Below are positions 25,369-29,204 of a DNA stretch of 64,000 nucleotides, one piece after another (the first letter of the stretch is position 1; every line of letters begins with the position of its first letter). A model generated the notes under the pieces. It made no database searches and was not told the origin of the DNA. It saw only the letters and a list, made by a program, of their open reading frames with translations. The DNA is from Bacillota bacterium (GTDB lineage: Bacteria > Bacillota > Clostridia > Lachnospirales > CAG-274). Both the position numbers and the translations under genes were made by a program. Location: positions 1 through 64,000 of the forward strand of contig JAFYGI010000051.1 in NCBI GenBank assembly GCA_017543265.1. Reading direction: 5' to 3'.

Positions 25369-25479
25369 TTGTTTTTTTATATATGCATTCAAGGGTTCGG
25401 CTCTTTATGAAATGAATTCTTTTTATTTTTTATATTATTATATTTATTAATATTATTATATTATTAATTTATTATTATG

Positions 25480-25542
25480 TTTGCCCTTGGTTTGCCCTTC
25501 GTTTGCCCTTTGTTTGCCCTTCGTTTGCCCTTCGTTTGCCCA
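25480..25542. repeat. 11-bp tandem array, TTTGCCCTTCG type
   Basis: Five complete 11-bp units and one partial: TTTGCCCTTGG, TTTGCCCTTCG, TTTGCCCTTTG, then two more TTTGCCCTTCG. Two further units lie at 25590-25611. The period does not fit codons. Confidence 0.9.
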
Positions 25543-25700
25543 CTTTTCGGCAGTCATCTCTCGTGTGCCGCTTATACAGCGGCTTTGGGCTTGCCCTTCG
25601 TTTGCCCTTTTTTCGTGATTTTCTTTTCACTTGTTTGTACTTGGCATATTTTTTTACCATCGAGCCGTCTGTTTTTATGTTTGCCTTAAATTATTTTACC

Positions 25701-26441: not shown

Positions 26442-27377
26442 ATGGACAGAGAGCAGAAGGAAAGAGCCTTTTACACCAAAAAGGCTGTTATATTGATAAT
26501 AGCGGTAATAGCCATGGCTCTGTGGGGCAGTGCGTTCCCTGCGATAAAGATAGGCTATGAGGTATTTCGCATCACGGACGGCACGGCAGCGGACAAGCTG
26601 GTGTTTGCGGGGGTACGGTTTATACTGGCGGGACTTTTGGTGACGGCGTACAACTGCGCGGCAAGCAGAAGCCTTGTACTGCCGCAAAAAAAGGATGCAC
26701 GCGGCATAATACTGCTGGCGCTGGTGCAGACGTGGCTGGAGTATATCTTTTTTTACATCAGCCTTACGCATCTTTCGGGCGTAAAGGGCAGTATAATAAA
26801 CGCAATGGGCAACTTTTTTGCCGTGATACTGGCGGCGATATTCCTTAAAAACGACAAAATGACGCTTGCAAAGGTGGCAGGCTGTGCGCTCGGCTTTGCG
26901 GGCATAGTTATCTGCAATCTCGGCGGCGGTATAGAGTCGGGGTTTTCGCTGATGGGCGAGGGCTTTATGATGCTGGCTGCCTTTTGCTTTGCAATGGGCG
27001 GTGTCATTACCAAAATTTACGCACAGGGCACCGAGCCTGCCGTGCTGACGGGCTCTCAGCTTGCACTCGGCGGCGTTATGCTGTGTGTGACGGGTGCGGC
27101 CTTTGGCGGCAGGATAGCGTTTTACGGCATGGGCTGTGTGTGGAGCATGGCATATCTGGCGGTACTGTCCGCGCTGGCGTTTACGCTGTGGGCAAAGCTG
27201 ATAAAATATAACCCCGTGGGCAAGATATCACTTTTCGGGTTTTTGAACCCCGTTTTCGGCGTTATTCTGTCGGGGATATTCCTCGGCGAAAATTTCTTTG
27301 ATATACGTCCCGTTGCCGCACTTGTCATGGTCTGCGTGGGTATATATATAGTTAATTATCGAAAAGAGAGCCAATAA
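26442..27377 (+). CDS. DMT-family transporter (EamA)
   Basis: Ten-helix drug/metabolite exporter of 311 aa, with two EamA repeats (about 18-155 and 170-305). Helix 1 contains ALWGSAFPAIKIGYE; the second repeat ends ILSGIFLGENFFDIRPV, the usual EamA sequence ahead of the last helix. ATG 26442 is preferred because the promoter -10 at 26402-26407 excludes longer forms. The ribosome site is weak (AGGCGG). Substrate unknown; family members export amino acids, nucleobases or metabolites. Confidence 0.88.
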   Translation: MDREQKERAFYTKKAVILIIAVIAMALWGSAFPAIKIGYEVFRITDGTAADKLVFAGVRFILAGLLVTAYNCAASRSLVLPQKKDARGIILLALVQTWLEYIFFYISLTHLSGVKGSIINAMGNFFAVILAAIFLKNDKMTLAKVAGCALGFAGIVICNLGGGIESGFSLMGEGFMMLAAFCFAMGGVITKIYAQGTEPAVLTGSQLALGGVMLCVTGAAFGGRIAFYGMGCVWSMAYLAVLSALAFTLWAKLIKYNPVGKISLFGFLNPVFGVILSGIFLGENFFDIRPVAALVMVCVGIYIVNYRKESQ

Positions 27378-27434
27378 GACCTTGGCGAAAATGTAATTTT
27401 TCGCCGGAGGCCGTAGGCCAATAAGGCCTTTTGT

Positions 27435-27506
27435 GCGCCCTTAGCTTAATGGATAGAGCATTCGACTCCGGATCGGAAGGTAGGGGTTCGATTCCCCCAG
27501 GGCGCA
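27435..27506 (+). tRNA. tRNA-Arg (CCG)
   Basis: Acceptor GCGCCCT pairs with AGGGCGC; D-arm GCTT/GAGC; anticodon stem TTCGA/TCGGA around loop CTCCGGA, giving anticodon CCG. T-loop TTCGATT. One A-C mismatch is seen in the outer T-stem pair. CCA is not encoded. Confidence 0.93.
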
Positions 27507-27510
27507 GTAC

Positions 27511-27573
27511 AAAAACAGCGGATATATCTCAAATGCGGGCTTTCCCGCAGGGAAGAGATATATCCGCTTTTTT
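27511..27573. terminator. Two-way terminator after tRNA-Arg
   Basis: AAAAACAGCGGATATATCTC pairs with GAGATATATCCGCTTTTTT, enclosing a second hairpin, TGCGGG/CCCGCA. It also serves the convergent micro-gene ending at 27581. Arms match the hairpin at 17122-17167. Confidence 0.88.
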
Positions 27574-27580
27574 AATGACG

Positions 27581-27715
27581 TTATCTGTCCTTGGGCAGCT
27601 CGTATGCCCCTATCAATGCTTTTTGCAGTATATATGCGGCATCGCCGGCGGTGACAAAGTTATCCGTGTCCGCATAGACGTTTGCGCACGCCGCCGATAT
27701 CCTGCTTTTTATCAT
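27581..27715 (-). CDS. Stand-alone dockerin-like micro-gene
   Basis: A 44-aa product. Residues 15-41 (ADTDNFVTAGDAAYILQKAL onward, then IGAYELP) match the calcium-loop/helix half-repeat seen at the C terminus of secreted ruminococcal proteins and in dockerins (DxDxxxTAxDAAxxLQ). No signal peptide is present and only one repeat. It has a GGGAGG site 7 bp before ATG and a strong promoter (27760-27788), so it appears to be a real transcription unit, not debris. Function unknown; a calcium-binding or docking peptide is a guess. Confidence 0.65.
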   Translation of the reverse strand: MIKSRISAACANVYADTDNFVTAGDAAYILQKALIGAYELPKDR

Positions 27716-27759
27716 GTGTATACCTCCCTTGTCGTTTTATCCGTTTTGTATTATCTATT

Positions 27760-27788
27760 ATTATAATCCCTTTCGGGGAAACGGTCAA
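27760..27788 (-). promoter_or_regulatory. Promoter of dockerin-like micro-gene
   Basis: On the minus strand TTGACC (27783-27788), 17-bp spacer containing TCCC/GGGA, TATAAT (27760-27765). Divergent from the DUF1015 promoter. Confidence 0.8.
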
Positions 27789-27885
27789 GACGGGGGATTT
27801 TTGCGTTTTTGCCGTCGGCGTTATTGCGGCTCACCAAAATCCCTGCCGTTATTAACAAAAACCGAAAAGTCAAATGATTATCATA

Positions 27886-27915
27886 TTGAAATCCACCCCC
27901 GATATATGGTATAAT
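27886..27915 (+). promoter_or_regulatory. Promoter of DUF1015 gene
   Basis: TTGAAA (27886-27891), 18-bp spacer, TATAAT (27910-27915). Confidence 0.72.
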
Positions 27916-27968
27916 GTAAGCATAAATGTAAACTTTTCCGCGCAAGCGGTTTATCAAGGAGGTACTAT

Positions 27969-29204
27969 ATGTCAGTATTACGCGCGTTCAAGGGTTATCG
28001 TCCCACGGCAGAGCTTTGTCCCAAGGTGGCCGCTCTGCCCTACGATGTTATGTCCTCGGCAGAGGCAAGGGAGATGGTAAAGGGCGACCCCTATTCGTTT
28101 TTACACGTTGACAGGGCGGAGATAGATCTGGATCCGTCCGTTGACATCTACAGCCCGCAGGTCTACCAAAAGGCGGCGGACAACCTTAAAAAGATGATAG
28201 ATGACGGCATCTACATCCAAGACAAGGAGCCCTGTATGTACATCTACCGTCTTACCATGGACGGCAGGAGCCAGACGGGTCTTGTTGCCTGTGCTTCGAT
28301 AGACGAGTATATCGAAAACAAGATAAAAAAGCACGAGCTTACACGCGAGGACAAGGAGCAGGACAGAATTCGCCACGTTGACACCTGCAACGCCAACACG
28401 GGCCCCATTTTCCTTACCTACCGCGCAAAGGACGATATAGACGCACTTATTGCGGCCGAGACTGCAAAGAACCCCGTTTACGACTTTGTGTCCGATGACG
28501 GCGTGGGACATACCGTTTGGGTAATATCCGACAAGGCCGTTATTTCGGCGCTTGAGGGTGCATTTGCAAAGGTGCCCGCGCTTTATATCGCGGACGGCCA
28601 CCACAGAAACGCATCGGCGGTAAAGGTAGGCCTTAAACGCCGCGGTGACGGGGATTACGACAAAAACGCGGAGTTCAACTTCTATCTTGCGGTAGCCTTC
28701 CCCGACAAGCAGCTTCACATCATGGACTACAACCGTGTTGTAAAGGACCTTAACGGCAGGACAAAGGAGCAGTTCCTTGACGAGATATCAAAGTGCTTTG
28801 ACGTTAAAAAGGCGGAGGACGGACACCCCAAAAAGGCGCTGGACTTCGGTATGTACCTTGACGGAGCATGGTATATGCTTACGGCAAAGTCGGGCAGCTT
28901 CGATGCGGCCGACCCCGTTGGCAGCCTTGATGTTTCCATACTGCAAAACAACCTGCTTGCGCCCGTGCTGGGCATAGGCGACCCGCGCACCGACAGCCGT
29001 ATTGCGTTTGTCGGCGGCATACGCTGTCTGGAGGAGCTTGTCAGGCTTGTGGACAGCGGCAAAATGGCCGTTGCCTTTGCAATGTATCCCACAAGTGTTG
29101 CACAGCTTATGGAAATTGCGGATGCGGGCAAGATAATGCCGCCCAAATCCACATGGTTTGAGCCCAAGCTGCGCAGCGGTATTTTCATCCACGAATTGAG
29201 CTGA
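27969..29204 (+). CDS. DUF1015-family protein
   Basis: 411-aa cytoplasmic protein of the DUF1015 family, common in Clostridia, often near serine biosynthesis genes. Typical segments: N-terminal AFKGYRPT...LPYDVM (about 5-28), FLHVDRAEID (about 44-53), and the signature IADGHHRNASA (about 205-215). The end segment is a conserved PPKSTWFEPKLRSGI. Biochemical function is not established. An AAGGAGG ribosome site precedes ATG 27969. No neighbouring serine gene is seen, though glyA lies far downstream at 62909. Confidence 0.9.
   Translation: MSVLRAFKGYRPTAELCPKVAALPYDVMSSAEAREMVKGDPYSFLHVDRAEIDLDPSVDIYSPQVYQKAADNLKKMIDDGIYIQDKEPCMYIYRLTMDGRSQTGLVACASIDEYIENKIKKHELTREDKEQDRIRHVDTCNANTGPIFLTYRAKDDIDALIAAETAKNPVYDFVSDDGVGHTVWVISDKAVISALEGAFAKVPALYIADGHHRNASAVKVGLKRRGDGDYDKNAEFNFYLAVAFPDKQLHIMDYNRVVKDLNGRTKEQFLDEISKCFDVKKAEDGHPKKALDFGMYLDGAWYMLTAKSGSFDAADPVGSLDVSILQNNLLAPVLGIGDPRTDSRIAFVGGIRCLEELVRLVDSGKMAVAFAMYPTSVAQLMEIADAGKIMPPKSTWFEPKLRSGIFIHELS

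Follow-up and report, generated by a model that had tools for sequence, protein, structure and literature searches.

Between a tRNA-Arg gene and a gene that we take to encode a DUF1015-like protein (27969-29204), the window (the whole 64,000-nucleotide stretch of DNA analysed here) carries a small ORF on the minus strand. Its translation, MIKSRISAACANVYADTDNFVTAGDAAYILQKALIGAYELPKDR (27715-27581), contains one whole dockerin repeat, which amounts to half a dockerin, the full domain being made of two. The frame, promoter, ribosome site and hairpin of this ORF are all intact. The features of the locus, and one comparable frame elsewhere in the same genome, are as follows.

27434..27507, plus strand: tRNA-Arg (ccg), a neighbor convergent to the ORF, from tRNA and Rfam searches
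27518..27567, both strands: hairpin resembling a bidirectional terminator, arms GCGGATATATCTC/GAGATATATCCGC, located between the ORF stop and tRNA-Arg, a member of a genome-wide family
27581..27715, minus strand: dockerin-type single-repeat ORF, 44 aa, ATG start, from the ORF list and repeat matches, with no Pfam match
27641..27676, minus strand: calcium-loop region of 12 residues, YADTDNFVTAGD, in which Tyr replaces Asp at loop position 1
27680..27715, minus strand: the 12 N-terminal residues of the ORF, MIKSRISAACAN, with no convincing relatives and no strong hydrophobic core
27723..27729, minus strand: ribosome-binding site AGGGAGG, ending 7 nt 5' of the ATG, from the sequence
27760..27788, minus strand: putative sigma-70-type promoter TTGACC-17-TATAAT, a consensus match only (11/12)
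27886..27915, plus strand: divergent promoter TTGAAA-18-TATAAT, 5' of the DUF1015-like gene, from a promoter scan
G000:C41:60491-60574 (L042 2926-3087), own genome: second half-dockerin frame, 54 aa, one repeat, with Ile at loop position 1

The original prediction had described a stand-alone dockerin-like ORF with its own promoter, ribosome site and terminator and without a secretion signal, and each of these elements was recovered. Two predicted promoters at 11/12 or better fall within 27381-27968, that of the ORF and the divergent one of the DUF1015-like gene, where a first-order Markov control gives 0.05 on average; the entire window holds 12 such sites on both strands. At a looser threshold, 4 sites in 27300-28100 versus 2.0 (sd 1.3) in shuffles are not striking. 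A secretion signal is not evident in the peptide, and a simple hydropathy window detects no strong hydrophobic core: the peak value over 8 residues is 1.54, compared with 3.19 for one signal peptide found ahead of a dockerin in locus L019. The GC3 of the ORF is 0.60, with 0.59-0.65 for three measured neighbors and 0.29 for one paralogous dockerin tail. Elsewhere in the window, between larger genes on the minus strand, the translation of 25456-25660 repeats words such as RRANEGQTKGK.

The dockerin repeat and its calcium loop

How closely is the ORF related to dockerins? A search of its own genome (G000, a draft in 63 contigs) with the peptide gave 39 matches (E up to 10), one of them the ORF itself. 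Frames of 230 aa or more contain 35 of the 38 non-self matches; of the exceptions, two (C43, C33) lie less than 50 bases from a contig end and one (C41:60491) belongs to an internal short frame. Dockerin_1 is matched 71 times in the same genome at E up to 1, and 52 of these matches exceed the cut-off (4 only together with neighbors); among 14 control genomes, 9 had matches at E up to 1 and 2 had matches over the cut-off. In a wider set, the peptide was matched in 44 of 97 genomes, its own included, at E up to 1, and 5 of 48 family genomes carry one at E up to 1e-5. At that level the family has 15 matches other than the ORF itself. These, with E values of 5.1e-7 to 9.2e-6 (E per one genome) and 52-63% identity over about 30 residues, begin at query residues 11-15 and reside in host frames of 432-2025 aa. 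Judged by these alignments, the similarity of the ORF to dockerin repeats exceeds chance. A Pfam search of the peptide found no family at E up to 10, leaving the Dockerin_1 profile (PF00404) unmatched. The dockerin kinship that had been predicted thus stood, and the description of the peptide as half a dockerin-type repeat was corrected to one whole repeat.

The N-terminal part of the peptide behaves differently from the repeat in these searches. A match to the whole peptide occurs in 1 of 48 family genomes, namely its own, and in the 47 others no intact micro-gene and no match reaching before residue 11 was found at E up to 1e-5. Weaker matches with earlier starts include, among those listed, G001:C14 (residues 3-43, 34% identity, E 0.0033, frame 734), G005:C183 (residues 4-42, frame 242) and G001:C32 (residues 7-43, frame 321), and all such listed matches lie in frames of at least 242 aa. 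They raise the possibility that the N-terminus is an old linker and not a signal-peptide stub. When the first 14 residues were compared with post-Met stretches near the starts of frames of at least 60 aa (loci up to L191), the best 15 scored 25-30 and look unrelated. At the DNA level, none of the 6 genus genomes yielded a convincing relative for the 120 bases that run from upstream of the promoter to codon 12. The best non-self match (G004:C72, 34 bases, E 0.001) falls within a coding frame, lacks an ATG at that point and was set aside as chance; the next is G002:C14 (22 bases, E 0.002). A scan of a genome contig collection with the 51-aa frame yielded 315 pattern matches and no tblastn relative, the own genome possibly being excluded from that collection. 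A parent or intact orthologue was not found in the genus, in one search that scored 40 of the candidates in G000, G001 and G004 and another that scored all.

The calcium ligands of dockerins occupy loop positions 1, 3, 5, 9 and 12, according to excerpts of PMC4582956. In the ORF these positions read Y-D-D-T-D; ligand 1 is lost, and 3, 5, 9 and 12 are retained. A set of 81 distinct repeat strings, the ORF included, was assembled from fits to a loose pattern in loci L001-L111 and the window. At position 12 all 81 have Asp, as the pattern required; at position 1 Asp occurs in 76/81, with Tyr (the 44-aa ORF), Ile (the L042 half-dockerin frame), Asn, Lys and Glu once each. Two short frames at contig ends, L016 and L040, retain Asp at position 1. 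The codons GTC TAT GCG GAC of the ORF correspond to GTC GAT GCG GAC in the L012 repeat (G004), and the neighboring codons align. A loop deletion of two residues was discarded as an alternative, since a single GAT to TAT substitution relative to L012 accounts for the difference without gaps. The ORF scored 44.8 in a 20-position leave-one-out profile (median 56.5, 11th from the bottom among the 81), and its deficit comes mostly from loop position 1. The repeat is otherwise well kept and shows no heavy decay, from which it follows that decay is recent or that constraint partly remains.

In retaining loop positions 3, 5, 9 and 12, the ORF repeat resembles the type I dockerin (Pfam PF00404, Dockerin_1), and its helix DAAYILQKAL resembles those of Dockerin_1 domains of the same genus. 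Unlike Dockerin_1, it has only one repeat in place of two in tandem, has lost calcium ligand 1, and comes without a partner domain, an evident signal peptide or a Pfam match. Single repeats have precedents: excerpts of PMC2930009 describe group 2 dockerins of R. flavefaciens FD-1 with only the first calcium repeat, at the protein C-terminus, which its authors view as either partial and non-functional or as having a single-binding mode, and excerpts of PMC4582956 describe Clocl_2271 of C. clariflavum with one of two calcium-binding repeats, at the protein N-terminus. As far as these excerpts go, the ORF shares with both the presence of one of two calcium-binding repeats only, and differs from them in that its repeat does not sit at the end of a protein but makes up most of a 44-aa peptide. 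A small part of the open-licence literature contained no stand-alone leaderless dockerin repeat, which is weak evidence.

A further parallel comes from the own genome. The 54-aa frame in L042 is, like the ORF, a stand-alone internal frame with one repeat and a lost loop position 1. Unlike the ORF, it has another sequence, is more diverged (the lowest profile score among the 81), and lies behind a gene that is presumably serine-resolvase-like. G004 has a similar resolvase-like gene upstream of DUF1015 (L046, L112).

The junction and the hairpin family

Relatives of the DUF1015-like protein, with 82-90% identity, occur in 4 of the 5 other genus genomes and not in G002. DNA similarity to these congeners ends near the start of the DUF1015-like gene; the exceptions are one 46-base piece in G004 (76%), over the promoter region of DUF1015, and some dispersed fragments 12-20 bases long. 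Each of the 4 congeners has different genes upstream of DUF1015. On the other side, the tRNA-Arg match adjoins the same gene, which we assume to encode a DMT-type transporter, in G001, G003, G004 and G005; G002 (70% complete) has no tRNA-Arg match. The far-side genes of the tRNA are common to G001 and G004, and those in the congeners differ from the genes of the window. The micro-gene locus is therefore a synteny breakpoint relative to 4 comparable congeners, with a junction common to none. Integration borne by the tRNA was rejected: with up to 3 mismatches allowed, the window shows no other copy of the tRNA 3' end. An Rfam search of 27380-27968 passed only the tRNA at its gathering score, and two other matches fell below theirs.

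The hairpin begins 13 bases 3' of the ORF stop. On the minus strand, 27505-27590 folds at -36.3 kcal/mol (z -6.7; 0/200 shuffles equal it), followed by a run of 5 T; on the plus strand, where the tRNA-Arg precedes it, the hairpin folds at -35.3 (z -6.4), with a run of 6 T. A simple terminator scan missed the hairpin at 27518-27567 and reported no terminator for the ORF. The arm pair GCGGATATATC...GATATATCCGC occurs as 12 exact pairs in the own genome versus 0 for a reversed control, and a single arm as 64 copies versus 5 for control. Exact pairs number 1 in G001 and 0 in G002-G005. On this evidence the hairpin is a member of a lineage-specific family of putative bidirectional terminators.

Loops vary across the family and the arms are conserved in sequence, which suggests a sequence-specific motif and not the copying of an element. 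The inspected members comprise 8 distinct sites (9 loci, one site being represented twice), 7 of them in the own genome and 1 in G001, and at least 4 of the 8 (L062, L198, L199 and, in G001, L197) lie between two convergent frames. Gene ends beside other members show a stop-to-hairpin distance like the 13 bases of the ORF; the micro-ORF thus ends where genes of its genome often end. Of 51 own-genome hairpin sites, 4 lie at most 400 bp downstream of a Dockerin_1 match versus 0.58 expected under uniform placement, a figure that understates chance because hairpins and Dockerin_1 matches both sit at gene ends, and 2 of the 4 matches (C6, C29) are below the cut-off. The family may be compared with uptake sequences that serve as terminators, and is perhaps more curious than the 44-aa ORF itself.

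Origin of the ORF

We propose that the ORF is probably the stub of a gene that once encoded a secreted, dockerin-bearing protein and then underwent an internal deletion. The deletion would have taken out the signal peptide core, the protein body and the first dockerin repeat. It would have fused the original promoter, ribosome site and initial codons in frame to the last repeat, with the stop and terminator of that repeat remaining in place. The product, if made, would be a leaderless 44-residue peptide with one repeat and no calcium ligand 1, and should remain in the cytoplasm, apart from secreted cohesins; a cohesin-binding function is probably absent. Several observations lead to this reading: signals intact at both ends, a single repeat, no evident secretion signal, the lost ligand, the breakpoint, and an N-terminus without a close relative. 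Since the parent was not found, it is the deletion event that we infer, and likewise the lack of function and the parental origin of the 5' signals. No relative displays a longer broken gene of this kind at the locus, and the status of the ORF as a remnant is what we infer in its place. The missing parent, the well-kept repeat, the intact signals and the neighbor-like GC3 are points against the deletion.

The same breakpoint relative to 4 congeners, together with the 120 bases that lack a convincing relative in the genus genomes, is consistent with rearrangement debris, in which the junction retained a dockerin tail that came to lie by chance behind a promoter and ribosome site of other origin. 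This would require that an 11/12 promoter, a well-spaced AGGGAGG, an in-frame ATG and a hairpin in its usual place all coincide, and we therefore consider debris less likely than the internal deletion, and unlikely overall. A mis-joined draft contig could also place the ORF at a junction unseen in the compared congeners, in a genome of 63 contigs. Such an artefact is scarcely credible: the upstream neighbors of DUF1015 vary across all 4 compared congeners, making a misjoin unneeded, and the promoters and hairpin suit their neighbors.

The intact frame, the expression signals on both sides, the neighbor-like GC3 and the loss of only a single strongly conserved position would also suit a working micro-gene, that is, a domesticated dockerin repeat encoding a small protein that acts in the cytoplasm, for instance as a partner of cohesins or a decoy for them prior to export. 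We regard this as quite improbable. A match to the whole peptide was seen in 1 of 48 family genomes, its own, the contig-collection scan gave no relative at the sensitivity of that search, calcium ligand 1 is lost, and no secretion signal is evident. A functional micro-protein is possible, and conservation lends it no support; that a leaderless 44-aa cytoplasmic protein with a calcium-dead loop and its own strong promoter keeps scaffoldin cohesins free before export, or senses unexported cellulosome parts, is highly improbable. The original prediction was thus partly supported: a leaderless dockerin-derived ORF with its own signals is there, and the reading as a dedicated cytoplasmic micro-gene, whose close matches are repeats of long dockerin frames, gained no support from conservation. 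The promoter and hairpin would delimit a transcript of about 235 nt, and one might ask whether this small RNA is what matters, and not the peptide; with Rfam passing only the tRNA in this region, and with the dockerin match and ribosome site left unexplained, the chance of this is very slim.

What is the relevance of such a stub? Were the peptide made and used in the cell, a dockerin fragment would be at work before export, which would be odd and which the evidence does not favor. The internally deleted dockerin gene suggests instead that dockerin-rich genomes can shed stand-alone repeats that resemble small genes with good signals, and surveys of small ORFs could score such shed repeats as new proteins.
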